From Blastomussa wellsi (taxonomy: Eukaryota; Cnidaria; Anthozoa; Scleractinia; Plerogyridae): DNA of 64,000 bases. Where the stretch lies: the NCBI GenBank assembly GCA_947652115.1, contig OX393563.1, positions 26,329,294 through 26,393,293 on the forward strand. Reading direction: 5' to 3'. This document shows, in pieces, positions 1 to 51,152 of this stretch. A program made the position numbers and the translations under genes. The stretch's first letter is position 1, and every line of letters starts with the position of its first letter. Below the pieces are notes generated by a model. That model did no database searches, was not told where the DNA came from, and saw nothing but the letters and a program-made list of their open reading frames with translations.

Positions 1-1028
1 ATAGTCGAAGCGATATCTCTTGAACCTCTTTCAACCTCGAAGTACAAAATTACACCTAACTGTCGGTTCGAAAAAACGAAAAAAACACTTCCCCTTGAGA
101 CCAAATTTCGACGCCATGTCGAAACGCGGTTCTCAACATTTTGGTGTGTCTTTTTACCGGATGTGCCGCCGGAGATTTCAAACACGCTAGCTAAGTTGCC
201 GAGAACATTTTGTTTAGTCTTCACATTCAATTTGAGCTGACTTCAATCATGGTTCGTTAATGAGCCAAATTAAACTTAACAGAGTTTGCATCAAGATCGG
301 GTCTTATAATTTAACTCTTGTTGGCGTTTAGGTAAACTGGAATTCTTTACAGTGGTGTTTCTCGTTATAGCATTTTTTAGGTTATAATTTGGCATTTCCG
401 ACATTCGAGCTATAGTATTTTAGTCAAAAGCAACATGGGAAATTTTAATGAATATAATAACCTATAAACGTTAATTCTCTCAAGAACCCTTTAAAAGAAA
501 ACTGACAAAACGGGTTTTTGCCAATTTTGAAAAACACACTGTACATAGTTAACTTGGTTATTAACCCGAGGGCTCGCAATTCTATCCCAGAAAACAAGTT
601 TTGTGATTTAAGTGTCGTTCACTTTCAATGTGGTTTCTATTTCATATAACTCTAATATAAAATACTGATTAGATTCGCGGGGATTTGAGTATTTCAATTA
701 CCCTTAAACGCACGGTAAGAGCTTTAACAAATAATATATCATCCGCTGCGTTGCGCTCAATGAACTACCATCAGCTACTGATCATGAAAAACAAGACAAT
801 TCACAATCCCGATGACAGTAGGGCAAAAGGCAAATTTATAGTACCTCAGAATCCAGATGCTTGATCCAATGCGTTCAGCTAGTTTGTACAGGAAGAGTAA
901 TTGAAGAAAACCGACTTCAAGGTCACATTATCAACAAAAGGCCGCAATATTGTAAGCAATTAAAGATAAAGAGACAACATTATTAATGTCAAGCATCTAG
1001 CTCGGTTACGAAAGTTAACATAATTCAA

Positions 1029-2438: not shown

Positions 2439-5163
2439 AGATTTCAAACACGCTAGCTAAGTTGCCGAGAACATTTTGTTTAGTCTTCACATTCAATTTG
2501 AGCTGACTTCAATCATGGTTCGTTAATGAGCCAAATTAAACTTAACAGAGTTTGCATCAAGATCGGGTCTTATAATTTAACTCTTGTTGGCGTTTAGGTA
2601 AACTGGAATTCTTTACAGTGGTGTTTCTCGTTAGGGCATTTTTTAGGTTATAATTTGGCATTTCCGACATTCGAGCTATAGTATTTTAGTCAAAAGCAAC
2701 ATGGGAAATTTTAATGAATATAATAACCTATAAACGTTAATTCTCTCAAGAACGCTTTAAAAGAAAACTGACAAAACGGGTTTTTGCCAATTTTGAAAAA
2801 CACACTGTACATAGTTAACTTGGTTATTAACCCGAGGGCTCGCAATTCTATCCCAGAAAACAAGTTTTGTGATTTAAGTGTCGTTCACTTTCAATGTGGT
2901 TTCTATTTCATATAACTCTAATATAAAATACTGATTAGATTCGCGGGGATTTGAGTATTTCAATTACCCTTAAACGCACGGTAAGAGCTTTAACAAATAA
3001 TATATCATCCGCTGCGTTGCGCTCAATGAAGTACCATCAGCTACTGATCATGAAAAACAAGACAATTCACAATCCCGATGACAGTAGGGCAAAAGGCAAA
3101 ATTATAGTACCTCAGAATCCAGATGCTTGATGCAATGCTTTCAGCTAGTTTGTACAGGAAGAGTAATTGAAGAAAACCGACTTCAAGGTCACATTATCAA
3201 CAAAAAGGCCGCAATATTGTAAGCAATTAAAGATAAAGAGACAGCATTATTAATGTCAAGCATCTAGCTCGGTTACGAAAGTTAACATAATTGAAAGTGA
3301 ATAATAATCATGAATTCTTCAATTTAATATATTCCATCTCAGATATAAGAAAGGTCGATCAACATGCAAACCGCAATTCTATTAAACTTTCTCGGTTTCT
3401 CTTTCCGTGTGCTTTGGGACTTTGTCAAATGTTCGTCCCATTTTTTGGTATTTTTCTGCAAAAGGAGGTTTGTAGAAATTCTTTGTGCCATATTAATTAA
3501 CATCCGTTGTCTGTTTGTTGTCTGTTTATCTGTTTGTAAGTGAAATTATCCGCCATCACACATCACGTAGCTCTCAGTTACCTTGCTTCAAAATTGCACT
3601 AAATCTGTCCCTTTCATCGAAATCTTTCCTAAATAGTCGAAGCAATATCTCTGGAACCTCTTTCAACCTCGAAGTACAAAATTACACCTAACTGTCGGTT
3701 CGAAAAAACGAAAAAAACACTTCCCCTTGAGACCAAATTTCGACGCCATGTCGAAACGCGGTTCTCAACATTTTGGTGTGTCTTTTTACCGGATGTGCCG
3801 CCGGAGATTTCAAACACGCTAGCTAAGTTGCCGAGAACATTTTGTTTAGTCTTCACATTCAATTTGAGCTGACTTCAATCATGGTTCGTTAATGAGCCAA
3901 ATTAAACTTAACAGAGTTTGCATCAAGATCGGGTCTTATAATTTAACTCTTGTTGGCGTTTAGGTAAACTGGAATTCTTTACAGTGGTGTTTCTCGTTAT
4001 GGCATTTTTTAGGTTATAATTTGGCATTTCCGACATTCGAGCTATAGTATTTTAGTCAAAAGCAACATGGGAAATTTTAATGAATATAATAACCTATAAA
4101 CGTTAATTCTCTCAAGAACCCTTTAAAAGAAAACTGACAAAACGGGTTTTTGCCAATTTTGAAAAACACACTGTACATAGTTAACTTGGTTATTAACCCG
4201 AGGGCTCGCAATTCTATCCCAGAAAACAAGTTTTGTGATTTAAGTGTCGTTCACTTTCAATGTGGTTTCTATTTCATATAACTCTAATATAAAATACTGA
4301 TTAGATTCGCGGGGATTTGAGTATTTCAATTACCCTTAAACGCACGGTAAGAGCTTTAACAAATAATATATCATCCGCTGCGTTGCGCTCAATGAACTAC
4401 CATCAGCTACTGATCATGAAAAACAAGACAATTCACAATCCCGATGACAGTAGGGCAAAAGGCAAAATTATAGTACCTCAGAATCCAGATGCTTGATACA
4501 ATGCGTTCAGCTAGTTTGTACAGGAAGAGTAATTGAAGAAAACCGACTTCAAGGTCACATTATCAACAAAAGGCCGCAATATTGTAAGCAATTAAAGATA
4601 AAGAGACAGCATTATTAATGTCAAGCATCTAGCTCGGTTACGAAAGTTAACATAATTCAAGTGAATAATAATCATGAATTCTTCAATTTAATATATTCCA
4701 TCTCAGATATAAAAAAGGTCGATCAACATGCAAACCGCAATTCTATTCAACTTTCTCGGTTTCTCTTTCCGTGTGCTTTGGGACTTTGTCAAATGTTCGT
4801 CCCATTTTTTGGTATTTTTCTGCAAAAGGAGGTTTGTAGAAATTCTTTGTGCCATATTAATTAACATCCGTTGTCTGTTTGTTGTCTGTTTATCTGTTTG
4901 TAAGTGAAATTATCCGCCATCACACATCACGTAGCTCTCAGTTACCTTGCTTCAAAATTGCACTAAATCTGTCCCTTTCATCGAAATCTTTCCTAAATAG
5001 TCGAAGCAATATCTCTGGAACCTTTTTCAACCTCGAAGTACAAAATTACACCTAACTGTCGGTTCGAAAAAACGAAAAAAACACTTCCCCTTGAGACCAA
5101 ATTTCGACGCCATGTCGAAACGAGGTTCTCAACATTTTGGTGTGTCTTTTTACCGGATGTGCC

Positions 5164-5502
5164 GAATAACCCACCCCCCCCCCCCCCACCCCCACCCCCA
5201 TTGGGTGTTGACAAGGCATGGCTATTTATGGCCGCCATGTTGCGCGACTCCGTCGCCGTCGCCGTCGTCGTGCGTATGCGCCCACGAGCATTACCGCTAG
5301 CCATGATAACCATGAAAAAATCAACTCATGGGTTTCGTTTTCGTTCCCATATGAGTATGGGGCTCCGCCTTTTCTATCGTCGTAAGAGTTCGTTACACAA
5401 CATCCGAAGATGACCTCCGGTCGATCGATGTAATAATTTTTGAGAGGGACTGGGGAAAATCCATCCCAGCATGCAATACTTTATAGCGTGCAAAAATCCA
5501 AG
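5164..5502 (+). promoter_or_regulatory. Probable KHDC4 promoter and 5' UTR region
   Basis: A C-rich tract (about 5171-5202) is followed by a CpG-rich stretch with CGTCGCCGT runs (5248-5275) and a GCCGCCATGTT motif near 5230. The KHDC4 start codon at 5503 sits inside AAGATGGCGGC, which matches the YY1 consensus found at many animal TATA-less start sites. No TATA box was identified. The transcription start itself cannot be seen. Confidence 0.45.
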
Positions 5503-11500: not shown

Positions 11501-14500
11501 TTAAGAAAAGCTGATAACCTATATTTAAAAGTTTCTAGGGAGGTTGATGAAACAATGGCCCAGGGAAGGCGGTTCCAGTCCGCTATACTGTAGTTTTTGG
11601 GAATAATGAAAATTTAAAAACGTCTTTATTTGCATACAGCACAGTATTTTTCTTGAAGTTTGAATTTTTTGTTTGACACCATCAAAAAGTCATGTCAGAC
11701 AGATCTGGCACATTTGTACTTCTGTTTGTCTGTTTGGTTGTTTACCAGTTGTATATTATATATATTTACAGAAGTGTTTCAACATTATCATGTTGATTAA
11801 TTATTATTTGTTTGTATTTGTCACTGTTTCAGAGTAAAACCATTGTATCTCTGCATTCAGGGACTCACTCAGGAGAAAGTTGATTGTAAGCTAATTACAA
11901 GTAATGACATGCACCGTAATACTGTTAAAGATGATTTCCAGTCTGTACTGCGCAATCTCCACCTGCAATGTTTTTGGGAGTCTTACACAAAGTAATTTTT
12001 ACTTGCCAAAATGAAAATTACAGGAAATACTTACTTTTCTCTTCATTTACAATTATCCAGTGAAATCGCATGGAATATTTAATAATTATATGCTGCAAAA
12101 TTGCACAGAATATCACCAGATACTTAACCAAAGAGGCCGTAGAACAAGTTCGCTGAAATCAGGCGATATTGAGCAGGATAATAATTTTTTTTTTTAAATT
12201 AAACTAATTGTCAACGAAGAGTATTTTACAGCTAGAAAAGTTGCTGTTGCTTTGCAAGACTTCCATCTAATTATCGTTACCTGCGAACAAGGGGCCAGGC
12301 CACTTCCAAACAAAATTGCACCCACAGTATGGCTGTTAGATGAAACCGCTGAAAACATGGCAGCCACTAGATGTCAATTGAAGTGTGTGGATTACAATGG
12401 TTGTGAAAGTCATCTACAGCGTCTGCTGTAACTTGAATCTTTATTTACTTTTTATTTTAATTACTTTCTATGGAGATTAAAAGCTTTGACAAGACAAGGG
12501 GTAAGTTTCTTGCTGAAATCAAGCACAAAGTTTTTTTTTATTTAATTCCTCGGGCCTCGTTCAAAACACTGACACAATGCTAAGTGGTCACAAACACTGG
12601 TCGTAAACACTCAATTTTCAGTCGCAGTGGCGACCAGCCGGTCGCAATTTCGGACCCTGGTGAATACTATTTAAACAAATCCCGAGACTGCACAGTTCTT
12701 GTAACGGACTGGAAATCAACTTTAATGGATGATGACTTAGAACACAACAATGTACATGTACAGTAATGTTCTGTAAGTTATTAATTAATATTACTTTATA
12801 ATAAAGTCACACTTGGGACAAGTGGCCCACATTGATACCAGAGCTTATTGTGGTTTCTTTGTTAATAGCATAATAATTTTATAAAACCAACAAGAATATT
12901 GCCACTCCCTTTGGATGTGATGCTTGTCCAACACCATGTTACATGTATACTTCAACATGTGGCCAGGTTTCACAAACAACAAAAGTGACTTGACTACATG
13001 TGGAACAGATCATCATGACTTCAACTGGCACTTGAACCTGGGCGACTACATGTATATCTGGCATCCAGTCTGCTAACTATTTCATGCACATGTTGGCCAT
13101 CCTGTAGTTAGTTAGTTTAAATAATTATTCATACTTTTCCAGTGGCAGTGAAACGTATCAGCGAGATAATGGCTGGTGGCGACGTGAATGCCAATCCACC
13201 AAATCAGCCTCAGAGAATACCTGTTTCTTCACCCATGACCACGCCTTCTTTTAATCAGCCTCTTGCGATATTTGATAGACAGCCATTGCCACCAGGGGTG
13301 AGTGCAAGAAATAAATACTCATAATTGTGCAGGGTGATCTATGAAATTCAAAACCTGGCTTGCCTTTCGGATAAGCAGTAATTTCATCTTACTAACCCAA
13401 ATCTCTATGGAGCTTGCCCGAAAAATATTATTGTTTTGATTGAGTTTACTCACTTGCTTCACTTTCTCTCGTGAGCTGTCTTTAGTTTGACATCAGAAAA
13501 CAAAACAACAACAACCGACATTGCTTCACGCATGTCCACTTCTTGCTTGCCTGTAGCAACCTGCGATGTGAAGGTGCTAGGCCTACTGGTTGTGCCACTA
13601 GTGCTGGGTTATCGGACAGCCTTTATGTTCCACCCTGTAATGATAATGACAATTATTGAAACAGTTACTTTTCATTGTTCTGTGATCTGAGTTATATCGT
13701 TCCTTTTATTCCTTTTATTTCTTTTATTTTCTAATAATTATTTTAACAAATTGGACATGCCCACAGGTAGCTAGCTAATCTAGGTGGGTCATGTCTTAAC
13801 TAAAAAGAAAAAGGTAAGTATAGAAGTTAACAGAAATCAGGAAATTAACCAGAGAGAGTACGTATACAAGTTTATAGAAATCAAAAATCTGGAAGTTAAC
13901 TAAAAAGAGTAGGTATAGAAACAAAAATACAACAATATTACAATTAAGACTATACTTGTTATTCTGAAAATGCATAAAAACCTTAAGAAAATTTGACCTT
14001 TTGAATAACGTTTCGTATGTCAAGATAGGAGTCTTCAGAAGACAGAATATTGAAAAGTACTCTTTTAATTTTTCTTTTAAAGTCATGTTTAGAAAGATTC
14101 CTTAATGTGAGAGGCATCTCGTTCCAAATTTTTGTTCCAATTCTAGAAAACGAGTTCAGTTGAATAGAGAGCCTAGAGCTTTGTGTGTAAAAGTTGTGCG
14201 AAGCAGAGGATCGGGTATTATAGGGGTGAATATTAGATATGTCTTGAAACAGGTCTCGAATATTTCTAGGTGCATTTCTGTGTCTAATATCAAACATCAG
14301 GTTAGCTGTAAGTTCATAATAAGAAAATTGTAGCGGTAAAATACCGGCATCGGAAAATAGAGGAATTGCATGCTGATTGCGGTCAGAAAAATAAATAAAA
14401 CGTAGAGCTCGTTTTTGCAGCTTGAGAAGCTTATCAAGATATGATTTACACGCCTGGCCCCAAACGATCAGTCCATAGGTCAAATAAGGCGCAACAAGAG

Positions 14501-17500
14501 ATCTATAGATATTTATAAGAGTGTGTTTTGGAACAAAATGCCGTAGTTTAGATATTAGACCTATGGTTCGACTAATTTTAATTGCTATATGATCAATATG
14601 ATGTTTCCAAGTTAAATGACTATCGATTAGTATCCCAAGATATTTTATAAATTCCTTACATTCTAACGCTACATTTTTATTCTGCTCGTTATCAAAGATC
14701 ATAATTTTGGGTCGATAGGTAAATTTTCTTTGAGCAGGAGAAAATATGACGAAGTTTGATTTTTTTATATTCAGGGTCAATTTATTTGCCGTTAACCAAT
14801 CATACAATTTGCAGAGCTCCTGGTTTACAATTAACTCCAATGACCTAAGATTTTTGTCAGCATATAGGATATTCGTGTCGTCAGCAAACAAAAAAAACTT
14901 AAGCTTTTCAGAGCATTCTTGAATATCGTTAATATAGATTAGGAAAAGTAGTGGGCCTAAGACGGAGCCTTGCGGTACTCCATAAGTAATATCATTTCGA
15001 GCAGATATATATGAATCAATTTGAGTTGTTTGAGTTCGGCCTTGTAGATAAGAAGAAAACCATTTATTGATGACACCACGGAAACCATAGTGATCTAACT
15101 TGTGTAATAGAATTTTATGATCTACCGTGTCAAAAGCTTTCTTTAGGTCAATAAAAACTCCACACGAAAATAGGCGTTTGTCCATGTTTGTCTGTATGGT
15201 GCTCACAATATCCAGGATTGCATGCTGAGTTGAAAGTGTTTTACGGAAGCCATATTGAGATGGGGAAAGCATATTATGTTGTGCAATAAAAGATTCCATT
15301 CTCTTGAAAATCAATTTTTCAAAGATTCTGTTAAAATTAGATAGCAGAGAGATTGGCCTGTAATTACTAGGATCAGTATCATCATCTGTTTTAAAAACAG
15401 GAATGATCTTTGCCATCTTTAGCTTATTCGGGTATACTCCGGTCGAAATAGATAGATTTAAGATTTCTGCAAGAGTATTGCTGATAACATTCGACGAGCA
15501 CTTCAAAATCTGCGTTGGACATGAATATAAGCCATGAGATTTGTTGTTCGGTATGCGAGAAATTTCTAGTTTCACTTCAGATGGGGTTACTAAATTGAAA
15601 GCAAACGACGTATCAGGAGAATTAGATCTGTTAAGAAAATCAAAATAGTTGCGCTGAACGGATGGTAACTTATTTGCTAGTTTAGGCCCTACCGAAGCAA
15701 AATGTTTATTGAGAATATTAGCAATTCTATTGGGGTTGCTTGAAATTGAATTATTGTCATCAGGATCTTGAATAGAACTAATAGGCTTGGAATTGTTTGA
15801 TTTACGTGCGAGGATACTATTTATTCCTTCCCACGTTTTTTTCATATTTGTCAAATTATCATTAAAGAATTTGGTATAATATTGCTGTTTACTTATGCGT
15901 GTTAACGTACAAATTTTATTTCTATACATTTTATATTTAGCTCTATCACCCGACACATAAAGCTTATTTTTGACTCTAATCGATTTTCGCAAGCCTTTAG
16001 TGATCCATGGTTTGGAGAACTGTTTTGCTTTGCGATTAGAAATTGTTTTCATCGGTGCATGCTTGTTCACAAGTTTGTTAAATTTGTTGTAAAAGGAGGA
16101 AAATATGCTGTTAACGTCATTCGATTCATTTGCAAAGAGAGCACTCCAGTCCACATTAGAAAGATCAGCATTTAATCTGTCACTAGAAAAACGTGAAAAG
16201 TCTCGCATTTTAGATTTCTTAACCCGAGTTTTTGCCTTCATAGATTTTAAAATGCAAAATTGCGAAAAATGATCACTTAGGTCAGTGATTAAGTTTCCAC
16301 AGGCGATCACTTTATCAGGATTATTAATAAAGATATTGTCAATAAGGGTGGCAGAGGTAGGGCGGACACGTGTTGGTTTGTCAATTGCAGGAGTGAGATA
16401 ACAACTTTGAAGGGACGATAAAAAGTCATGACTATGATTGGATGACTCGCACTTTAGAAGATCAATGTTGAAATCACCCATAATTACTATGTCTTTTCCG
16501 GAAGACGTAAATTTTTCAATACACTCGTCGAAATACAATTGAAAGCGTTCAGGTGAGTTATGCTGTCTATACAAAATTCCACAGATAACATTTTTCCTAT
16601 TCTCAAAGGTTATCTCAGCCCACAATGCTTGAAAAGCTTCATTAGAGATCTTTTCTAAAATGCGATAGTTTAGCGACTCATCAATGAACAATCCTACGCC
16701 CCCTGAGGACAGAGGCGTTGGAACGTATTCAAATGAATATCCCGGTATTTTTGCAGTACACATTTCTGAATTAGCATTAGTAATTTTTGTTTCTGATACT
16801 CCGATAATATTGAAATGAAAATTTAATTCGTGTAAAATATGAGTTTGAAGATTTTCAAGATTACGATTTAAACTAACAACGTTGTTGTGAAAAACAGAAA
16901 AACTTGTGTCAGTTTCAACTTTGGTTTTCATTTGCCTAAAACTATGGGGTGAATAATACCGACTGGGAATTCTAATAAAGGATTGATTATCAGGGTTCAA
17001 ATTACAGTCTAGAACTGTATTAAGGGTAAATAAATCTAGGTCATATAAACAAGTGAGCTTGTCCAAGTCTCGTTTAGTTTTACAAACGGTCGATAGCGAG
17101 TTATTAAATTGGCCATGGATTTGAATTAAGTTTCCTGTATAGTTGAAAAACGGTAGTTCCTTTAAAGTCAATTTGGCAGATTTCTCTGCTACAGCTTTAG
17201 TTCCTTTCATAATAATATTCAATATAAATAACTAAAATAGAAGAATATCAAAGACAAATCCCACTTAGCTGGCAGAGTCCATTTGATCTGATCGGGGCTC
17301 ACGCTCTCTTAGTTTGGATAAATCGCCAAGTGACTCCAGACGAATCGCCGTTGATGTATCTGTTTTGCGAAGAAAGATTGCAACCCCTTTCGACCAGCAC
17401 CACTTGTAACTGTGCATGTTTTGGTGACCCTTGGCAGCATATAATAGTTCTTGTAATCTTGGCGTAAGGTGACTGTAAATCCTGATTTGGTTAATCTCCA

Positions 17501-20500
17501 CAGTAGGAGAGAATCCCAAGGCCTCTGGAGTTAATTGAGAGGTGTTGCGTCTCGAAGCCAGTACTTTGTCCCGAGCCATTCTTCTTGTAAATTTACAGAC
17601 AATCGCGTTAGGTTGTCTTCGGCGGCCATTATCTATCGCTGCATTACGTTGTGGAACCCTATGCGCAATGTCAATATCATAAACAGAGATATCATTTCCA
17701 AGGGCAGAAAATAGCTTTAGACAAAGGTTGGCCGTATCTTCTGCTGATTCATTCTCGTTAACTAATGGAACACCTACAATCTTTAAGTTGTACTGGTAAC
17801 TGTAATGAAGCATGTCATCAATGGCTTTATCGATCCTGTCAACATTTTTTCCTAGTAAGTCCAACCTCAAAGAGAATTTGCCAAGATCTTCTTCTATACT
17901 GGTCTTAGATTGTACCAGGGTATCGTAGCTGTCACTAAGAAATTGTACATCCTGCGTATCTGGTGGAATTACAGTTGCTGTGCAGCTATCTCTTTGTTCC
18001 GCCATCTTGCTTTTGATAGATTCGAACTCCTTCTTTAACTCTTCTAGTTGCCTCTTCACTTGCTCGTTTTCGTTGCGTAGAGCTTTCACTTTATCCTTGT
18101 CTCCCATTTCTTAATTTGTTAAGTTGTTACAATAAACAAATATCGTTGCGACAAAAACTAGATTTTGCCGGAGCGCTCGCTGAAGCGTCCGACCACCACC
18201 GAGTTACTGATAAATAGTAATGTTTTTATTTTATGTGCCCATGCCATTGTACAACATTATTTTTTCAGTAGATTAGATTGAAATTCGGTCCAAAAAAGAG
18301 TGTGTGTGCATCACACGTGTTGTCATTGCATGACAGTAAATTTTAATTTCATGTTGTTTCTTGATAATGTCACCAGTTACAAGTGACATGCTGAAATCAA
18401 TATTGTCTGCTAGTTTGGAACATGTACATTGTACCGGAACTTTTGTAATGTGCTTTTCGTTTCCTGTGTTAATTATAATTGTTTAAATTTCAGATGCATT
18501 ATGTTCAAGACAAAGTGTTTGTTGGTCTGGATAATACTTTGCCAGAATTTAATCTTAAGGAGAAGCTACAAGGACCAGCGGTACGTTCAGAAAAGGACAA
18601 GATGTACACATGTACAGAAATGATTGAGAATGTATATCATAGTTGCATAGAGCGAATTTCAAATGAGTGTTGTAAAACCAAAACCAACTTTAACCATTCA
18701 CAAAGGACAGAAATAATCCAGTGATCCAATCAAGACTCAATTGTGGTGCTGGTTTACATGTAGTTCTGATTGGTTGAAAAAGTGGTGCGAGATTTTTAAA
18801 CCAATCACTGAGTGTAGTAATGCAAACGGTTTAAACCAACGCAATTTACTAATTACTGTCAACACTTATTGAAAATTGCTCTGACTATTAACTACATGTA
18901 TAGTGATGGAGACAAAATTCCTGTCATTGCAGCTTATAATGAAAATAAAAAAAAGATAAATGTATGTTGTACAGTGCATACATGTAGATGAAAATGGTAT
19001 TCAGGTTAAATCATCCTGTTTACAATTTTGGTTAATCTGATTCAGCCTGTAGATAATATTGTTTTTTGGATTACCTTTTAATGAGTTCAACTGAATTTGT
19101 GTCACTGCAAATTTAAAGTGTTATCTCAAGTTGAAGTGATTAATTTAGGCTGGAAATCAAAGTGATGTACATAACACGAATCAACAAGATATTCAAGTGT
19201 AGCTAATGTTGTTTCTGTTGTTGAAAGAGGAAAAACCAACTCAAAAGTGCTACTGAGCAACATAACATGGTGGTGTAATTGTAGCCAGCACTCTTAGCAC
19301 TGAGCTACATGTAGCTTCTCAAGCACAAAATTATTTTATTCACTTCATATTCTTGTGTCTGTGCAATACGTTTTCAAGCAATGCCGTGATCAGACTTGAA
19401 TTGCCTATAATGGTGGATATTACACTGTGTACAGTGTACAGTGTATATTCAATTACATGTAATCAGAACATTATTTAAAATGGAAACTATTATACAGTAT
19501 GAACTGTTAGTAACACACTTGTTTATATTCCAGGGATCATATTTTCAGCATATCACCATGCAAACAGGAGCCAAGGTGAGAAAAAACTAACAGCTTCAAT
19601 TCCAGTACAGGACAATATTGAATATTTTTTAAGCTAGACTTACATGTAAGTACATTTTGGTCTAACTTGCCTCAAAATATTTTGACACTATGGTTTCTGA
19701 TTCCATGGCATCCACTGCCTGTACATGTAATTCACATTGAGGATTTGAATTGTGTCTCTTTTTTAGATTCAGCTTCGTGGTAGAGGATCTGGTTTTATTG
19801 AACCTACGTCTGGTAAAGAAGCTTTTGAAGCACTTTACATTTACGTCAGGTAATGAAAAATTAATGTCATGTATTTTGTAAGGATGTCCACTTAGACCAC
19901 AGGCGGCCCATACGTTGTATGTGATTTATGTGACATTATGTAAGAGAATATATGGGAAAAGTTCGAAAATTGCCCTAAATTCTGCATGTGGAAAAGAATG
20001 CAAATAAAAATGACTTACCTTGTGTTTTCATTACGTTATTTTGATGTCTCTGTGGTCCTGGAGTCGATTTAAAGACATTTAGGCGAGTTTACCTTCTGAG
20101 GTTTTGCCTATGAGTAATGCGAAGCGGAAGGCTGGCAACTTAGTCCACCAACGGTCCACACTCGAAGCTCCATAAATCCCATGAAAATGGCCTAATCTCG
20201 CCAAAACTGCCTCACGGAAGCCGTTGATAAGTTTTCTTCCTATAGGCTTTGCCTCGGGTTTCAAGGTTTATCCTAACCTTTCGAAAAACACTACTTTTCA
20301 GACTCAAGATTTCAAATTCTGCTTTCATTTGAACCGCATTCAGCTGTCTTGGCCGTCAAATTCAAACTGCCAGCTTAGCGACCGCGCCATTGTGACAAAA
20401 TCAATCTCCACACTGGAGAGGCACAGGACAATTTTGATCATGCAAATTATACCGTGTTATGGCCGCTGGGGAAGTTTCACCGGAAACGACAGGAAATTAT

Positions 20501-23500
20501 GAAACACTGTACGCAGGGAATACGTGGTTCATAATTGCCCGCATGCAAACAATCAAGGTAGGTCACTGAGTTAATTTTTGAAATAAAAATAAATGTTTTT
20601 TATGCCTTTCATTTACGGTTTAATCGATTTTAGTTGTAGCGCGTGCATGTTTAATGGCAATTTGGATTCCACGCTAACGCGATCTATGAAAGAGTGTGCG
20701 CAGCTGAAAACCCTTCCGAGCCTCCTTTAAAGACCATTTCCAGTCCGTACTGCACAGTCTTGGTATTTATAACTTGCGGTACCTAGGTACATTTCTGTTT
20801 TGAATTCGTTGACACTTCACCCTTCGGTAACTGCGTACATGAAGTTTTTGAGTCCACCATTACGGTTTGTTTTGTTTGGGAGTTCGCAATGAGCTGAAAC
20901 ACCGGTCTGGAATATCGTTGAGGTTTGTCTACTCATTATTATTGGTTTTGCAAGGATATCAGATGTTATATATCAGAACATTTTTACCCATAATTTTTAT
21001 TTTGGCTTGTTTACATTTCATCATGTGAGACTTAAACATTGCAGGCGGAGATTGCGGAGTATGGACTGGAAATGGCTTTTAATTAAGTGGACCTACTTAG
21101 TTCTTCACCTTTATGAGCTAAAAATCTCAGTGGAAGTATTAATACTTGTAATAAAATAAAATAAATACTGTGCGGTTATTCTCACCCTCTCAGTCACAGT
21201 AAAGTTGATGGCTTAGCAGCAGCAAAGAAGCTAGTAGAAAATCTTATACAAACGGTGAGTTGTGTATGAATTTTGACTGAAATTATAGTGAAACCTGGAA
21301 AACTGTGAAGGCCTATTTAAAATGATTTCTTTAATGTTTGTTTGACCAGGAAGCAGATTCACGATAAGCCGCAAAGGCCAAAGCATAAATTTACAGACAG
21401 ACTGGCATGTACATGTATGAAGTTTAATTGGAGTTTTCAGACGGGTGGGGGTCCATGGGGGAGGAGTAATGGATAATTTATGAAACTACAGTACACATTT
21501 CAGAAAAAAATATTTTAGCTGTCCATAGTTTGCAGTGCTTTTAATAAGACCCGTTACCCGCCAGAGCTCCGGCGGGTACTCTCTCCCAAATCGCCAGCTG
21601 TTTGACCTGCATTATTAAACGTGCAATGAACAAATAAATAGAAACAAGCAATTCACCTCAATTTAATTTGTGTTAGAAAACTAATAAAAATGTTAAAAAC
21701 AGAATAATTGTTTGATTTATACTCTCCCTTGTGATTTTATTGCTGAATACGCTGCAACTTAGTGGTGCCCGATTTAGTTTGCTTCGTTGTAAACATCTTC
21801 ATCACTGACGGTCACACTCCAACATACTTCACATAACGCGAAGTATGGATTTCTGTTTTTTGTAAAAGAAAGAAAAATACACACAGTCTACGGACAATAA
21901 AAATCACAATTTTGAACGAATTTGACCCACGAACCTGTTCAGTATCCTTAATATTTTGCGTCAAATCAATGGAAATCGCGTTTCTGAGCTTTCTCATTTC
22001 AATTTTTTTTCTGGTGGGGCATGGCCCCAGACCCCCCCAGATCAAAAGGGGCAGAAGTCCCCTTTTAATTTCTCCGGCGGGTGCTACCATTACATACATG
22101 TAGCTACCTACTTGAAATCTTACTGAAAGCACTGGTAGTTTTATGGGTTTCTCTTTAAGGTCATTCCCCTGAAATAGAACTGACAATAGATTTTCGTTCA
22201 AACTTTGCCCATTTGTTGTTCATCGTAAGGGAATTTAAATTTTGTAATGAAAAAGAGGGGTTCCCATATTCGTTTAGGAGCAGGAGCACCTTGAAAATAC
22301 CCCATGTTTCGTTAAAATATCAGCTTCAGAAATGTTTTCATTTGACTAGCTCATGCCACGTCTTATGGGAGAAGAAAAAAATAAGGAGAAAGCAAAACAA
22401 GGAAAAAAACTATGGATATACTGTATCGCCTTCAAGGAACAATTTAATATATCTTTCATTATGAAAGCACGCATTTCCAGTCGACCTTGATTCAACTTGT
22501 TACTAGTATGCAGTGATCTCGAGGCCACAATATCTGTTCAATAAGTTCACGTTTCCGTTGATTATTTATTTTTCTGCGATGGGAATTTGTTTATATTCCT
22601 GTTATAGGAAGAAAGTGATTGCTAGTCTCAGAAAAAGGGTAAAAAAATATAGGTCACCATACTCGTTTACGAAAAAACAACAATTTATCTCCTTCACGAG
22701 CAAAGCCGTAAATAAAACGCCGCAGTTTTCTTTAGGTGCGCGCGCTGATGACGCAGTAAATCGTGCGCAGTAAGGATGCACAATGCAATACAGGGGAATG
22801 ACACTGAGCTGTTATTTGACTCTAAATTGCATGTACAGTGTAGATGTACTCCAAACTAATGAAGCTCCTTGAAGGTCCTAGAGACCATGTACATAGGTGC
22901 TTGTATACCAACTGAAATTGGACTGCAAGTTGCAACTCAGCTTTTGCTCTACACTGCACCTTCAATAACATTATACATTTTTGACTGTTGACAATCGTTG
23001 TAGGAATTTTGTTGAGCACACATAATAATTATTACAGCTTCAACTGTCAGTAGGTACGTGTAGATATCTAAAGTCCATAGTTTCTTTATATTTTCTCGTA
23101 AATGTTAAGTGGTCCAATATTTTTTTAGGTCCATACAGAATACAAAGCATTTGAGCAAACAAGGAGGACACATTATGGATATTCACCGTACATGAATGGT
23201 TAGTGTATTGGTTAGTTTATTTTGCCCCTCTGTAAACGAAAGAGTGCTGACCAGTTGATAAACGGCAAATGGGTATGTCCAGGGTGTTAGACGACCAAGT
23301 TTGTCTATCGTGGACGTGGGAACGTAACTTAACTGTTGGAGTACCACTGCTCTTGCAGAAACTGTCATCTTTTATAAGAACATTATTAAATTTTGGCAAT
23401 GAAATATCACCTGTGCATGTTGTTAAAGACGTAGGTTAATCATTAACTATTTTGTTTTAAACTACTCGCTACAGCAGCGTTTTCAATAAAATTGGAAGTA

Positions 23501-35541: not shown

Positions 35542-36204
35542 TTAAGGTCATTCCCCTGTATTGCATTGCGCATCCTTACTGCGCACGACTTATTGCGTCA
35601 TTAGCGCGCGCACATGAAGAAAATGGCGGCGTTTTCTTTACGGCTTTGCTCGTGAAAGAGATGAATCGTCGTTTTCTCGTAAACGAGTGTGGCGACCTAT
35701 ATTTTTTTACTATTTTTCTGAGACTAGCAATCACCTTCTTCCTATAACAGGAATATAAACAAATTCCCATTGCAGAAAAATAAATAATCGACGGAAACGT
35801 GAACTTATTGAACAGATATTGTGGCCTCGAGATCACTGCATGCTAGTAACAAGTTGAATCAAGGTCGACTGGAAATGCGTGCTTTTATAATGAAACATAT
35901 ATTAAATTGTTCCTTGGAGGCGACACAGTATATCTATAGTTATATCCCTTGTTTTGCTTTCTCTCTATTTCTTTGTTCTTCCATAAGACGTGGCATGAGC
36001 TAGTCAAATAAAAACGTTTCTGAAGCCGATGTTTTAACGAATTATGGGGTATTTTCAAGGAGCTTCAAGGTGCTCCTGCTCCTAAACGAATATGGGGACC
36101 CATCTTTTTCATTTTAAAATTTAAATTCCCTTACGATGAACAACCAATAGGCAAAGTTTGAACGAAAATCTATTGTCAGTTCTATTTCGGGGGAATGACC
36201 TTAA
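35542..36204 (-). mobile_element. TTAA-flanked ~660-bp element, family Z copy 2
   Basis: It is bounded by TTAA-GGTCATTCCCC at 35542 and GGGGAATGACC-TTAA at 36204. It is the inverted counterpart of 22155-22805, and both TTAA duplications are intact here. The 86-codon frame (35836-35576, - strand) is conserved relative to copy 1. Confidence 0.85.
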
Positions 36205-42411: not shown

Positions 42412-42509
42412 TCCGACCTGGATGTAACTATAACCACCAACGGTTTATATTGCAAGACATCCATGATATTTCACTGTGACTGTGATATTTAAATATGGTA
42501 ATTAGATTG

Positions 42510-42524
42510 CAGGGCCGTACCTAG
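42510..42524 (+). repeat. Left terminal inverted repeat of the hAT element
   Basis: CAGGGCCGTACCTAG is an exact inverse of 46993-47007. The CAG start is typical of hAT ends. Confidence 0.9.
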
Positions 42525-42805
42525 CGGGGGGGCAGTTGCCCCCCCTAGGAAAATTAAATGTTGATTTTTTTAACGAAGTGTTTGTTTTTGATGGGATATT
42601 TCTTGTAGCCATATTGGTCCAAAATCTCAAAAAAAACCGGCTAATTGACTGACAAATATTCCTTCAATGTAAATTCCACATAGTTATTTTAGAAAATCTT
42701 TCGCAGCAAAAGCCAGAAAGAGTTTTCTTATGACAATAGCTTGGGCCGTGATATGAACAGGTGAAATGCGTTCAAGAGTAAACGAGTGGGATTGGGACCG
42801 AGCGA

Positions 42806-45800
42806 ATGTTGATGAACTACGCCGGGTCGAAGATGAAGAAAATAACAGACTTTTATACCAAGAAATCAGGTAAGTTTGTGGTTCTTTTGTAAAAAATGTT
42901 GTTTAAGTTAATTTTATAGCAATAATAACTAATTTCAACTGCCGATAGCATCGAAATACCGTGCAATTAATACAAATCGTTTTTCCATCCCGCCGCCATG
43001 TTGAAAACTGGCTGGCAAGAAACTCGTGTCTTTAATAAACTTTCGTATATAATTTAAAACATTTCGCAGATTCAGCCCAATCAAGGCCTGAAGAATCTCC
43101 TTCTGCGAGTGATCATAATGGAGGTAGTAATGAAGGTAAGCAGAAAAAATTGTCATTGGACGGAGACAGAGACAATACTTATTTATTAGACCTTCACTAT
43201 GTGAACTGTCATTTAAATTATAAACACAGAAAGAAGCTGTGCTCCTCCTAGCAAGGCAGCAAAAGTCAGCAACGATCAGGCTGTAGCGCCCAGGATCGAA
43301 GGTAAATTTTTTATCTTAATTTTATTTATCTGAAAAGCAAACTTTTTAATTATCGACCAGTACTGAGAAAGAGTATTTAAACCGACGTTGTAAGAAGTCT
43401 AGTGAATTCCAAACAAACTGACTAGTATTAATGTCGTTCTAATGATTGAAGAAGCTAAGTTGCATAATCTAGTATTTGTAATGGTTACTAAGTAATTAAT
43501 TTCCTTTTACATAAGTATAAAAATAAGTGTTTCCCTTTTAGGTGGAATAATGATAGAAGGAAACCCCTTGCCCTTTGAAGTTCTGATGGAAATTTTTAAA
43601 TGGTTTTCAACAGAGGAACGACTTCAGCAACTGGCGCCAGTGTGCAAACTCTTTTATCAAGCCGTCCATATACCAAAATTTTGGAAGATAGTTGACACTA
43701 ATTCAGAATTCACACTTTCTTCTTTTCATTCTGTTTTTGGGCATGCTGAACATATAACACATCTCGGTTTTCGTTATTCTCAACGACAATTAGGGAGAAA
43801 TCTTATACAAAATGCTCTGAATAATTGTGTCAACCTTGTCCACTTAGACCTGGCGTACAACAGGTCAATTTTCACTTTGCATTTTATACAAAGCATGCCA
43901 TTTTTAAGACACCTTGACATAACAAGCTGCCAAAATGTGAAGGAAAGTAGTTTAACACTATCCCTTAAAAACAAGAGAGGACTGCAGGTTTTAAAAATGG
44001 CAAATTGTTTTCAGATAGAAGGAAATTCACTCGTTTCCTTAATAAGGGGTCTGCCTGACGTAAGGAACGTAGTTGCCAATTGGTGTGGCTCAATAACAGT
44101 AGAACAAGCCCGCGATGTTTTGCAGCAGTGCAAACTGCTGGCGTTTTCATTTTCACCATGCTGGGGGCCTCCAAACTTGTGGGAAGAATTTGTACAAGAT
44201 TTTAAACATATAGAGTTTGGTGAGGATCTGTTAGATCACGTCAAACGAGTAAACCTGCCGGGATTTTTGTATGATGACGAAATAGAATAAATTGAGAATG
44301 ATTTGTAATAGGTTCTATGAAAAATGGTGTAGTAAGTAGAAGTAAGAAAGTGTTAATAAAAAAGACAAATATATATGACAGCTCTTGTTTTTAATAAAAG
44401 GTCAGTCGCTGCTCGCGTTGATTGTTATTTTTATTAATTTAAAAATTGCAGCTGAAGCAAGTCCATGTGTTAGAGATCCCTATGATCCAGTGAATTATAC
44501 CGGGAAAACTTTATCAGACGACCAGAAGCTTGAGCTTCTTACCGTAAAGTTTAATTTTCCGCACGGATTCAAGTTCCCGACAACAGCCGGAAGGCGTTTC
44601 CAACTGTCATGGATGGAGAAGCGGCCATGGCTGCGTTACAGCATTAGAAATGACACAGCTCACTGTATCTATTGTATATGTTTTTCCAACAATACTGGTC
44701 CAAATGAATCGCCATTTATCTCAAAAGGCTTCCAAAACTGGAAGAAAGCAGACGATGTGCGCTTTGACGGCCATGCCCGCAGTGAAGAACACCGAATTTC
44801 AGAGGAAAAGATGACTAACTTCCTAAAGACACGCCGTCCAGGCAATGACATCAGTGCAAGACTACAAAAACAGTTAGCCGAGCAACAACTTCGTACAATG
44901 AAAGGTGTCCTGTCTATTATTGATGTAATAATTGCATTGGGACAGAGGGGCATTCCATTAAGAGGCAATTGGGATACCTCTAAAGGAGAGGAAGATGGAA
45001 ATTTCTCCTTCTTTGTTGACTGGAAATCCAAATATGATCCAGAACTCAAGGACCATTTGGATCACGCTTCTGGTAATGCTAAGTACACGTCTCCGAAGAT
45101 TCAGAACGAAATAATTAATTTTTGCGACAGATTGATTAGAAACCGTGTCCGAGCATCAATACCAAAGTATTGGAGTGTAATGGCCGATGAAACACAAGAT
45201 TGTTCTACATCTGAACAACTCAGTATATGTGTGCGATATCTCAGCAGTGAAAATGAAGTCTGTGAAGAATTCATTGGATTCGTAAAGCTTCAAGAAATGG
45301 ATGCCCAGACCATTGCAGATACCTTGTTACACGCACTACAAGAATGGGGCTTTAATATGTCCGGCCTGGTTGGCCAAGGATATGATGGAGCAAGCGTCAT
45401 GAGTTCAAGTAGGAATGGGGTGCAAGCTAAAGTTGCAGAGCAGTACCCCAATGCTACGTACGTTCACTGCAGGTCCCACGTTTTGAACCTTGCAATCTCG
45501 AGTGGTTGCAAAGCTGTGCGATCCATTCAGAATCTATTTGATAATGTCAGCAAACTTACGTGGTTTCTAAGTGGCAGCGCCAAAAGGAAAGAAATATTTC
45601 TTAAGACTGCCGCGGCCACCGATGACAGTGAACTGTTGAGCGCTCTAGTCGCAAGTGCTGGTGAAGACGAAAAAGATGAATTTGCCAAAACATTAGAAGA
45701 AGGAAGCAAGCGACAGACTGTACCGAGATTCTGTGCTACTCGTTGGAGTGCAAAGGTTACTACCCTCTCTGCTCTTCTCGCTAAATATGGCTCTGTACTT

Positions 45801-46685
45801 CTTGCTCTGGATGAAATTTCGTCATCAAGCAGTGGCGATGCTAAACGTGATGCTTCAGCTTATTCACGTATTCTCCAAGACTCTGAATTCATAGTCGCTT
45901 TGACGGTTTCTCAGTTTGTTCTGTCATTTTTGGCCCAAGTTACAAAGTCTCTACAAGCTAAGAGCTGTAACCTTGGCGATGCATACCAAAGTGTAACTCT
46001 CGCGAAAGAATGTATTAAATCAGCAAGAGGAGATGAATCCTGGTAGAAGTTGTGGAGACGAATCAGCCAGGTAGCTGACTCTATCAACGTCACCCTGGTA
46101 AAGCCTCGTACAACGACTGTTCAGCGTCATCGAGCAAACGCCGGACACAACGATCAGCCATCGGATTACTACAGGATTAATGTGTTCTATCCATTTATAG
46201 ATCACGTTGTCGGTGAACTTGAAACGAGATTTTCAATCCAGCACGAAGGCCTGATTGCCGCTCAAAACCTACTCCCTTTGTACTTGTCCAAGTTAACTGA
46301 CAGGCATATCGAGAAGATCAAGGACTACTTCAGCAAGCATCTAGATTTCTCGGAGAAGTCTAATTTTGACGCAGAGCTGGCAAGGTGGAAGATGAAACAC
46401 GCGATGGAGCCAGAGTCAGAACAAGAGGGTGCAATGCCTGATTGCAGTCCGCAAGAATTTCCCGCCATTCACAAGGTGCTGTCGATCTTTTTAACCACGC
46501 CTGTCGGAAGCGTTAGTTGCGAACGCTCCTTCTCAGCCCTACGCCGACTGAAGCTATGGACTCGGTCATCAATGACAGAAGATCGATTAAGTGGCCTTGC
46601 TATGCTGTTAATTCATCGCGGAACGGATTTCATTCCCACTCCAACAGAGATCTATGACATGAAGTCAAACTGGAGAGGAATCTAA
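42806..46685 (+). pseudogene. hAT transposase with TTF-type zinc finger, four exons, one in-frame TAG
   Basis: Exons 42806-42869, 43070-43135, 43230-43301 and 44452-46685 join in phase (each intron in phase 1), giving 811 codons plus stop. The N-terminus reads MKKITDFYTKKS at residues 10-21, a start seen in many TTF-finger hAT proteins. Residues ~95-160 form a TTF-type finger region (FQLSWMEKRPWLRYS, then CIYC). The RNase-H-like core has D313 (VMADETQD) and D379 (GYDGASVM), a CATRWSAK block, and the C-terminal dimerisation region VSCERSFSALRRLK with a candidate catalytic E758. A TAG at 46044-46046 (codon 599) interrupts an otherwise open frame that continues in the same register to 46685. No frameshift was seen. 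It would cut and paste the element if the stop were absent or read through. Confidence 0.85.
43542..44290 (+). CDS. F-box/LRR protein exon inside the hAT element (alternative terminal exon)
   Basis: The exon acceptor (ccctttTAG at 43541) is in phase 1, like the transposase exon, so leader exons 42806-42869, 43070-43135 and 43230-43301 can join in frame to it; an internal ATG at 43550 could also start it. From that ATG it encodes 246 residues. An F-box at about residues 6-45 (LPFEVLMEIFKWF, LAPVCKLFYQAV, PKFWKIVD) is followed by cysteine-type leucine-rich repeats (LVHLDLAYN, LRHLDITSCQNV, LQVLKMANCFQI, VVANWCGSIT). The frame is fully open and ends at TAA 44288-44290, overlapping AATAAA; further AATAAA signals are at 44355 and 44393. 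F-box/LRR proteins select substrates for Skp1-Cul1 ubiquitin ligases. It lies within both TIRs, on the transposase strand, so I read it as element cargo. Confidence 0.82.
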
Positions 46686-46992
46686 GAACAGCCTGTAGAG
46701 GCAGCGTTTGTATTCTGATACTGAAACCTGCAATTCTAGCTTAGTTCCTTCAAGCCAATCTTTGTTCAAACAAACGAATGCTTTTTTTGAAACTAAACAA
46801 GGTGTTGATGCCATAATAAATCATTACAATTTAAAACAAAAAGCATCAGTGTGTGTTTTTTCTTTAAAGGTCTCAGAGGCAACCCTCTGTGTGTTTGTCG
46901 GGGGGGGGGGGGGGGGGCAAAAACTCCAACTTTAGACCCCGTTTGTATACGGGAGATGATTGTGTGGAGCTTGCCCCCCCAGATGAAAAATC

Positions 46993-47007
46993 CTAGGTAC
47001 GGCCCTG
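46993..47007 (-). repeat. Right terminal inverted repeat of the hAT element
   Basis: CTAGGTACGGCCCTG is the exact inverse of the left end at 42510-42524. Confidence 0.9.
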
Positions 47008-47751
47008 GATTGCATGCCTTTTTTTGGTTAAATAATAAAAAAATTATTTAGTACTCTTCAACAAACTTTGCACAAGAATACCAAAAGTCAGTTTCTCTGA
47101 AGAGCCAAGAAAAAAGTAGCTCTTGATAACGAAATATACATGTAAGTTAATATAATTTAAACATGAAACTTTTCTGTTAGTCAGCTTTATAAACATCATG
47201 TAGAGACAACAATCCTAACCATACACATTATTTATAAATACTGGTACATGCTGTTCAGATGAAAGGATTTTTGTATTTTTACATGTTTTGCACAGCAAAT
47301 TCCAATACTTACTGGTACATGTATTAAACCCATTTACTGTTTTGCTAAATTAACATGAACCCTTTTTCTCTGGATTCAAAGAACTATGATCAACAAGCCA
47401 CCATAAATACCTGTACGCTTTGGTTACTGATATTTTTCCATGCTGTCAGAAATTTCAAATCTGAGAATGGGTTAGGACACTCCAAACATTCGCAGATAAC
47501 AAAATCGTAGCTTACTTCATGCCCTGTAAGGAACGTACATCTACATGTACGCTGCTATTGCACAGAAGAATGTAAAGATCTGCCCTGCAAATATTGAAAT
47601 CATTACTGTACAACAGCAACAATTTGATTTACATGTCCTTTCAGTAAAAAGGAACATCTTTAAAATATATGTTAATAAAATTAACAATGCTGGACAACGA
47701 TAACAGAAATGACACCATATCAATCGCTATGTAATCACATTGGCCGTTTTC
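47008..47751. other. Intergenic stretch, nothing recognised
   Basis: AT-rich sequence without motif-bearing frames. Several TACATGTA-like words occur (47297-47330, 47540-47555). Confidence 0.35.
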
Positions 47752-48269: not shown

Positions 48270-50802
48270 TTACAGAATCCGCAAAGCAACACACCCAAAG
48301 TTGCATCTTGTATTCACAGCACCAACTACAATCCACTTGTTCTTGTCCCTGTCATAATATTCAATGCTGTTTGTCACACGGCCCCCTACAACATAAATTG
48401 TGTCATTCACAACTGCCACTCCCAGGCAGCGGCGTCCAGCATTCATTGCTGCAACAGCCTGACTCCACTTATCTGCATCTGGATCATACATCTCAACACT
48501 GTTGCTACAAGACTCTCTATTATCAGATCCTCCAATAGCATAAAGTTTGTCGTTAAGGACGGCCACACCAAGACTCCAGCGTGCTGTGCTCATTGATGAA
48601 ATGGCCTCCCACTGGTTAGCATGGGGGTCATACCTCTCTGCAGTGTTCAGTGGAGCCCAGAGATGGTCTAAGCCTCCCACAGCATATATCTTGCCTTTCA
48701 CCACAGCAACACCTAAAGGAGAACAATACTGTAACACTCATGAGGTGTAATTTGATGCCCTGTTATCACTGTTACCCTGGTTAAGGTCTGGTTATTGTTA
48801 CAGCATGCCGTGCCTTAGTGTGGCCACCCAACAAACTTTTTTGACAAGTTAGCTAATCAGAGAGCACAATGTTGTTTGAGTTGTCCCATCTCCTTGTTGA
48901 AAGAGCAACAGGTTTTGTGACAACAGCTTTGAACATTGCAAGGAGGTGGGACAGCTCAAACAAATTTGAGCTCTCTGATTGACTAATTATAACTGGTCAA
49001 TAAAGTTTGTTGGCTGACCACAGTAAGGTACGTCTCGCGGTAATGGGCTTAAAACACATCACCATGTCTTTCTCCTGGTGTGTTCCTCATAATTACCACA
49101 AAGCCATTTCAGACTCAAATGGCTTCAAGTGTTCAAGCATGCACTGTATAATCCCCTCTAAGCCATTTCAGGCCCAAAATACAGAATAATGACATCAGTC
49201 TTGAAAGAAGTGCACACTTTGTGGAAATCCCCATGGCCAAGAGCCCATTCAGTAGGAACATGTATATGCATATTTATCTACCTGTAATGTACTACATATT
49301 CAGACAGTGATGATGGCAAACGATAGCGAGAAGGATGATGATGACACTTGGCCGACGAGGCCATAGGACAAGTTGGCTAAAATCGGATGATATTTTGCAA
49401 GATTGAGCAGGACAATTGTTTAATTTTATTCATCAAATTGTCAATGAGGCACATTTTACAGCTAGAAAAGTTGCCATTATGCGGCGCTTTGCGAGACTTC
49501 AGTGGAATTGTCGTACAGATCGCTTCATGGCCATATATGGACAACAAGACAATTTGTTGAATAATAACAGTAATTACCTGGATAGTAGCGAGCATACATC
49601 ATGGATGGTAAAGACCTCCATGTCATGGTTTCTGTATCAAACTGCTTAGCACACATACTGCTGTGGCCTCCAACGGCATAGATATATCCCTCATACTCGC
49701 ACACACCAGCCCACTTACACTGGACATCAGGACCTGTTGCGACCTGAATCCAGGAATTGGCGATGGGGTCATACTTGCCAACTTTGTAACGACTCACAGT
49801 GTACAATTCATCACCAACAGCAACCACACGAATGTAATCCTCTCTGGACACATGTGCCACAGACATACCAGCTACAACTGTCCATTCCAAGGTATCCACA
49901 TTAAAGCACTGTACACTGCTTATCTTTTGCCCATTGGACCAACCACCTATGACGAAAATCTCTTCTGACGCCATTCGAGGTCTGACACGGAAATTATCAA
50001 GGGCTGACGTTGACTTGTTTTCCAAAGCGGTCTGATAGCTGATAGCTTCACGAATAAGCTCTTTGCACATCCTGTACTCATTCGCGAGCCTCTGAATGGA
50101 TGAGTTACCATGCAAATATTGCAGATTCATAAGAGGGAATCTCACAAACTGCATGATTTCCGGAACATAAGTCTTTCTAACGTCCATATCATGAGAAATC
50201 CACTGCCATACGGCTTCAAACACCATCTCCTCGGACTGAACTTTCAGTGAATCATCCATAACCAATTCTTTCAACTGTTTATAAGGCATTTTCTTAAATT
50301 CCTCTTCCTTGAAGACGTTTGCGAAATGCCACAGAGCAAAACGATTCGCATGTTGACTTAAATCCTCGAGGCAAAAGAGATCAGCCACGAACTGTAGGCC
50401 AATACAGTTCGAAGGAGTCATGTTTCGCCGAAGAAACGTCTCGCAGTGATCGACCAAACTTGTCAACCGCAAAAGAACGCAAATCCGCAGTATTTCTTCA
50501 ACGTTATAAACATTGAGCTCGAGTTCTGTTGTGTAAAAATAATCGACTATCAGTTGTACGGCGTTGGCATCCACCTCTTTAAGGTGAATCTTTTGTTCGC
50601 TAGCCTCAGAAAAGCCGGACAGAAACATGGCTCTAAAGTAAGGACTACACGCCGCCAAAATGGCTCGGTGAGCGGAAATCTCGCGGTCGTTGACAACGAG
50701 TATGACATCGGACAACTCTTTTCGTCGTCTCATGCTGTCCAAAACTTCTAAAATATCTCTGGGGAGAGACTCTTCGATGACCAGAGTTGATGTAGAATCC
50801 AT
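48270..50802 (-). CDS. Kelch-like protein (BTB-BACK-Kelch), two coding exons
   Basis: Exon 1 (50802-49578) and exon 2 (48712-48270) join through a GT-AG intron in phase 1: 1668 nt, 555 residues. The BTB domain lies at about residues 28-135 (SDVILVV, AHRAILAACSPYFRAMF), BACK at about 140-245 (NCIGLQFVADLF, EEMVFEAVWQW), and Kelch repeats from about 283 (EEIFVIGGW, YIYAVGGH, KIYAVGGL, KLYAIGGS, TIYVVGG). Proteins of this plan bind Cullin-3 through BTB/BACK and substrates through the propeller. The frame is also open upstream of the ATG at 50802, so a longer N-terminus is possible. It is head to head with WDR41. I cannot name the orthologue among KLHL members by eye. Confidence 0.92.
48796..49045. 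mobile_element. MITE, family W copy 2 (in the KLHL intron)
   Basis: GCCTTAGTGTGGCCACCCAA and TTGTTGGCTGACCACAGTAA ends with internal AGCTAATCAGAGAG / CTCTCTGATTGACT pairing. It is homologous to 27544-27800. Confidence 0.75.
49350..49512. repeat. Dispersed repeat family X, copy 2
   Basis: It carries the ordered words gccgacgaggcc, ggctaaaatcgg, gagcaggacaatt, aaattgtcaatga and acagctagaaaagttg shared with 12050-12275 and 54535-54995. Confidence 0.6.
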
Positions 50803-51152
50803 CGTGGCGTTGAATTTCTCATCGAATAGAACGAAAAGCTTCGCGAGACCCGCTTTGTCTTGCCTCTCGTTGTTGATACCGGAAGACAAAAGAAGACCGA
50901 GTGATGTTGAAAACAGAAAGGACTGGGCAAAGGAAATGAATTGATGAATTCAATGGACCTTCCTACTTGCTGTTTCCTCTACCTGTGGAGGGACAAATAT
51001 GCAGAATACGTAACTCCAAACTTCCATTTGGCAAAGAAAATGAGAACCGTTTCGATGTAGTGGGCTACTAGCCTCTCCCTACCCATCTCAGTGCTTTGGC
51101 TTTTACTTCTTCCCACTCCCTCTCGTAAAGTAACTCAGATGAGAAATTCAAC
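50803..51152. promoter_or_regulatory. Shared KLHL/WDR41 5' region
   Basis: This is the interval between the KLHL start (reading left) and an AACATGGCGGA motif at 51151 (YY1-like, reading right). The WDR41 exons start further right at 54345, so this interval is the likely divergent promoter. No TATA box was identified. Confidence 0.3.

Follow-up and report, generated by a model that had tools for sequence, protein, structure and literature searches.

Cut-and-paste DNA transposons are usually thought to need their transposase alone. Viruses and bacteria hijack ubiquitin ligases, and Ulp1, which some of the transposons discussed below encode, is a SUMO-protease domain. No hAT group is known to us, our literature search included, that has an F-box/leucine-rich repeat (LRR) terminal exon as a family trait. 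Here we describe a hAT-type element of ~4.5 kb in the genome of the scleractinian Blastomussa wellsi, which spans positions 42510-47007 of a 64,000-nucleotide stretch (contig OX393563.1, positions 26,329,294 to 26,393,293 of the forward strand; 'the window' throughout) and carries an F-box/LRR frame and a transposase frame, both on the + strand, between its terminal inverted repeats (TIRs).

The closest described case is that of Pandoravirus celtis, whose hAT transposon S2 encodes seven proteins including its transposase; one of them, pclt_cds_870, is an F-box protein without a paralogue in either S0 or S1 (PMC6418002). The sequence-only reading that preceded this analysis knew of no description of an F-box/LRR gene paired with a hAT transposase, which is nearly right, this viral protein being the exception. 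The likeness is an F-box protein within a hAT element; S2 is among three large viral elements, whereas the element here is compact, its F-box is open in eight of nine copies, and a second family has the same arrangement. Rather than several unrelated cargo genes in a large element, we found one predicted gene with two terminal exons in 4.5 kb. Kaonashi, Ulp1-domain genes of non-TIR Mutator-like elements in several plants, provides a protease instead of an E3 receptor, as one of three coding genes, and its description there mentions no exons shared with the transposase (PMC13317346). Spm and SmTRC1, both CACTA elements, make several proteins per transposon gene by alternative splicing, and no ubiquitin-ligase domain appears in their description there (PMC1636069). 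Transposon-borne Ulp1 domains and alternatively spliced transposons are already known kinds. Finally, a PCNA-interacting protein (PIP) box is reported for the transposases of pogo, Tigger and Lemi1 and putatively for Ac (PMC5371812); our element resembles these in a short clamp-binding-like motif on the transposase and differs in two ways: the Q is missing, and both products, transposase and F-box protein, are predicted to have the motif. Our literature search found no paper in which a transposase gene has an F-box/LRR alternative exon.

The TIRs, CAGGGCCGTACCTAG, are exactly complementary over 15 bp (100%) and flanked by GATTG, and the element ends read CAGGG...CCCTG. Since 26 inverted-repeat pairs occur within 5.5 kb of this region, short inverted repeats alone are insufficient evidence of an element, and what places the pairing beyond chance is that this element occurs in nine genomic copies that have coding sequence. 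In the 368-Mb assembly (124 contigs), eight matches to the F-box protein were full length, at 99-100% and with the frame open in each, and a ninth was truncated, so that the frame is open in 8/9 copies; the transposase search (81 of 135 candidates scored) gave eight loci of the same subfamily, each adjoining one of the F-box copies. Perfect 5-bp target-site duplications flank eight of the nine (GATTG, TCTTG, GACAC, TATTC, ACTAA, ATTAC, CCGTC, GTATC) and that of L021 is imperfect; the duplications are mutually different, implying independent insertions in which the F-box moved each time with the element. Large internal deletions are present in L016 and L022, and L016 has lost part of the transposase and kept the F-box. 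A search with the 5' exon region returned 12 copies at 98-100%, namely the nine and three short derivatives in which the F-box is gone, the transposase is wholly or nearly gone, and the right end is kept. The F-box gene is confirmed to lie inside the transposon, beside the transposase. The sequence-only reading had called the 15-bp TIRs and the open F-box frame on the transposase strand between them, and both stand; its proposed check, that copies should hold the F-box at the same place by the same transposase inside the same ends, came out in its favor, the second hAT family adding the same layout. Its interpretation is supported in part.

An 8-bp target-site duplication is usual for hAT elements but not universal, and 5-bp and 6-bp groups exist. 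The duplication here is 5 bp instead of the usual 8; on the strength of its transposase we therefore class the element as a hAT, of a 5-bp type and not a typical 8-bp hAT. It has short TIRs and the C-terminal dimerisation domain of hAT transposases (Dimer_Tnp_hAT, 35.5 bits, cut-off 21.4), along with DUF4371 (78.7 bits, cut-off 32.1). Other hATs with DUF4371 and 5-bp duplications share these two domains and the CAGGG...CCCTG ends, and the window element adds the F-box/LRR terminal exon; such elements go under the Repbase label 'hAT5'. The 'TTF-finger hAT transposase' of the sequence-only reading holds as to the hAT transposase, whereas the finger match is sub-threshold (zf-C17orf113, 16.6 bits, cut-off 29.5). 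In the window copy the transposase is broken by an in-frame TAG that is absent from all eight other copies (8/8), and the 768-aa transposase frame is open in 4/9 copies.

The F-box frame is open from 43496 to 44290 (+), with its first in-exon ATG at 43550. Its F-box scores over the cut-off with two Pfam profiles (PF00646, F-box, 29 bits, cut-off 20.5; PF12937, F-box-like, 29 bits, cut-off 24.3). As to the LRR assignment of the earlier reading, LRR profiles match below their cut-offs (LRR_4 17.1, LRR_6 15.9 and LRR_8 15.3 bits), and the AlphaFold2 (AF2) model of the product shows an F-box followed by an LRR solenoid, resembling an F-box/LRR protein. The best structural matches of the model are Skp2, FBXL2 and FBXL17, with 10-22% identity in the structural alignments, and the product is predicted to have a Skp2-like fold. 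The likeness to these proteins lies in the F-box and LRR solenoid; unlike them, the product is transposon-encoded, and it is shorter than the matched chains. By analogy with its family, it would bind Skp1/Cul1 through the F-box, and the LRR would choose the substrate.

Shared upstream exons and alternative terminal exons, neither of which appears in the sequence-only reading, are predicted by an in-frame model of the gene (Table 1). The acceptors of the F-box exon (43542) and the transposase exon (44452) are both compatible with the phase 1 in which exon 3 ends. The splice signals are invariant in all window-family copies that retain the stretch (7 to 9 of 9), and the F-box acceptor is identical in 9/9. 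In the second hAT family the same phase holds throughout, from MKKITDFYVKKS through exons 2 and 3 to either ALPDEV (F-box) or DVATK (transposase), and in both families AATAAA motifs follow the F-box stop ahead of the transposase acceptor. No Met precedes the second family's F-box, so that its exon needs an upstream start. A database protein, P0047 (source 'lgn', 10 contigs), runs unbroken from exon 2 through exon 3 into the F-box exon at the second family's predicted junctions, and we read it as support of a transcript-like kind from a relative. Exons 1-3 are predicted to splice alternatively to the F-box exon or the transposase exon in both hAT families, on the basis of four acceptors that agree in phase, of splice and poly-A signals that are conserved, and of P0047, joined at two predicted junctions. 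Several hAT loci have a MKKITDFY exon in their 5' regions (window 42833-42869, L057, L054, L069 and L070; 401 bases were read for L069 and L070).

Table 1. Features of the F-box-carrying hAT element (window coordinates; exons and signals as predicted)
Feature	Position	Strand	Basis
Left target-site duplication GATTG, 5 bp	42505..42509	.	identical to right copy
Left TIR, 15 bp	42510..42524	+	inverted-repeat search, 100% match
Exon 1 (predicted), MKKITDFYTKKS, PIP-box-like without Q, common to both products	42833..42869	+	in-frame model; donor CAG/GTAAGT identical in 9/9; homologous exon in second hAT family
Exon 2 (predicted), common to both products	43070..43135	+	in-frame model; matching exon 2/exon 3 junction joined in P0047
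Exon 3 (predicted), common to both products, ends in phase 1	43230..43301	+	in-frame model; matching exon 3/F-box junction joined in P0047
F-box/LRR terminal exon with stop	43542..44290	+	Pfam, predicted in-frame model, AF2 model; full length and open in 8/9 copies
AATAAA, candidate polyadenylation signal of F-box transcript	44355..44360	+	in 8/9 copies, deleted in one
Second AATAAA, after F-box stop and before transposase acceptor	44393..44398	+	in 7/9 copies, deleted in two
Transposase terminal exon (DUF4371, Dimer_Tnp_hAT)	44452..46685	+	Pfam, predicted in-frame model; phase as F-box exon; TAG at 46044-46046
AATAAA downstream of transposase stop	46815..46820	+	in 9/9 copies
Right TIR, 15 bp	46993..47007	-	inverted-repeat search; comparison of copies
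Right target-site duplication GATTG, 5 bp	47008..47012	.	identical to left copy

The second family emerged from an F-box profile built from seven transposon F-boxes and run on six-frame translations of the collected loci, including 30 transposase loci of the 81 matches. The profile matched the window family, the loci of a DUF7869 element, two host FBXL frames and three loci of the second hAT family (L037/L057, L038, L054); at a fourth, L053, the F-box was cut by the locus end, and the F-box and the remainder were recovered in further searches. These four copies have their own F-box/LRR exon at the same position as the window's, in an element whose transposase shares 29% identity with that of the window over 770 columns and whose ends differ (CAGGGGCGGATCCAG). 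One copy is flanked by a perfect GACAA duplication, that of another is off by one base, and a single end is seen for the other two. In L057 the exon 2 region is tandemly duplicated (2091-2363 and 2397-2662), with exon 2 in frame in both. Genome-wide, a census that scored 150 of 153 candidates matched the F-box 112 times at E <= 0.01, and the 81 transposase matches were merged into 75 listed hAT loci. An F-box lies within 10 kb at 12/75 of these loci against 0.46 expected, and all 12 are upstream of the transposase on the same strand, with 446-1538 bases between the matches.

A third carrier is a DUF7869-like element, the DUF7869 match being slightly under its cut-off (25.7 vs 26 bits). At three loci (L023, L024 and L025; G000 C5, C9 and C1), F-box/LRR exons with F-boxes 28-29% identical to the window's lie directly downstream of a transposase-like frame; the F-box frame is open throughout in L024 and is interrupted in the others, by a stop in one and by a frame change in one. 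Both inverted ends were seen in L025 only, ~27 bases each, beginning with GAGGGGTTCAGAACC and perhaps flanked by AATT. Of the F-boxes compared, this type comes nearest to the window's, which scores 83 bits against relatives of the type (P0019 and P0021), 27-36 bits against the two host FBXL frames compared, and 18-23 bits against that of the second hAT family. In the DUF7869-like element the transposase stop overlaps a possible splice donor.

We give a probability of just under 60% to the following reading. The element would be a two-product transposon, in which the shared three short 5' exons are spliced either to the F-box/LRR exon or to the transposase exon to yield two proteins from one gene, and the F-box product would act as a substrate receptor of the host Skp1-Cul1-F-box (SCF) ubiquitin ligase and remove a host protein that limits transposition. 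Its weakest steps concern the common MKKITDFY tail, which would bind PCNA and bring both proteins to replication forks, and the target, which would be a host factor and not the transposase, although a host target is the putative substrate we favor. With an F-box exon in two distantly related hAT families and a related exon in a third type of element, DNA transposons would be acting on the stability of host proteins, and whether they fight host control with effectors of their own becomes testable in compact elements with copies that have open frames. If the transposase were the target, the gene could instead be a self-limiting switch: the F-box product, with the transposase's predicted N-terminal tail, would target or compete with the transposase, and the choice of terminal exon would set activity, much as the repressor products of other transposons do. 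Predicted common exons with alternative terminal exons are the layout expected of such a switch, and Spm TNPA, one of several alternatively spliced proteins, represses the unmethylated promoter (PMC1636069). The retention of the F-box in L016 after partial transposase loss, the observation set against a switch, is compatible with either target, and we regard the switch as unlikely.

Several results weigh against the two-product transposon, and others bear on its origin and on selection. MKKITDFY departs from the PIP-box pattern Qxx[I/L/M]xxF[F/Y] (as given in PMC5371812), with M at the Q position and the I, F and Y positions fitting, and is PIP-box-like only. The first residues of P0047 resemble the end of intron 1 (compare frame 43039-43251), so that this protein does not show exon 1 joined, and it may come from a processed genomic copy. 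The two hAT families' F-boxes are so dissimilar that common descent of the exon is not established. No F-box was found within 10 kb at 63/75 listed hAT loci; one of these is L034, where the profile search gave none in ~3.9 kb upstream of the transposase frame and whose transposase is closer to the second family's (38%) than the window's is (29%). The 5' exon region DNA is 73-75% identical between the two families, and no DNA alignment was obtained between them across the F-box exon or the compared part of the transposase exon; this mosaic is consistent with 5' or 3' cassettes having passed from family to family, with loss of the F-box in some lineages as the alternative. The sequence-only reading had offered dN/dS below 1 across copies as a sign of selected function, and this was not seen: the F-box differs among the nine genomic copies by 8 nonsynonymous to 3 synonymous changes, close to the neutral 71:24, and the transposase by 15 to 5 and one stop, as expected without selection. 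Differences among copies are neutral after insertion, implying that nothing protects single copies once inserted, as expected of a transposon. Signs of selection appear between lineages only. P0010, P0057 and P0062 (48-53% identity) have 0 stops vs 6.8-7.4 in neutral runs, a test that is biased by a database of predicted open frames, many of its entries fragments; substitutions were more conservative than in all 400 neutral runs for P0002, P0057 and P0062, and those of P0001 and P0010 did not exceed all 400.

The neutral-looking variation and the many hAT loci that manage without an F-box would suit a capture of host F-box/LRR exons that are now carried as passengers with no function, their site upstream of the transposase being a tolerated insertion in a long intron. 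However, two hAT families whose F-boxes are hardly alike have the same domain class in the same intron and phase, the third type of element carries an F-box as well, and the frames are open at 48-53% identity, albeit in a database of open frames, so that we find a passenger distinctly improbable. Least of all do we believe in an independent gene with its own intronic promoter and a start at ATG 43550, without the shared N-terminal tail. In its favor, this ATG lies 8 bases into the F-box exon, and MIEEN is the called start of P0001, P0005 and P0008. Against it, no Met stands before the F-box in the second family's exon, P0047 joins that exon to exons 2 and 3, and the window's F-box acceptor is invariant.

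A wider extension of the two-product transposon is tentative, and we would sooner doubt than assert it: at least three DNA transposon families may deploy an SCF ligase of their own, with an F-box/LRR receptor made beside the transposase from shared 5' exons or a fused frame. In the hAT families the clamp-binding tail would take both proteins to replication forks, where the receptor would remove a host repair or silencing factor, and cassettes of F-box and 5' exons might be swapped from one transposon family to another as counter-defence modules.

Elsewhere in the window, BTB-BACK-Kelch frames adjoin the transposon on the opposite strand (48270-50949, -), which we take to be of KLHL type, a Cul3 adaptor class. 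A retroelement of the long interspersed nuclear element (LINE) type lies at 13983-18110 (-), with an endonuclease and reverse transcriptase frame of 1082 aa and an upstream 281-aa frame matching Baculo_FP_2nd. Positions 1-5296 hold near-identical direct repeats, for example three 300-base copies at 173, 2439 and 3805 (99-100% identity), and an inverted repeat of ~650 bases, in two pieces 92-95% complementary, joins 22155-22802 and 35547-36204, ~13 kb apart.

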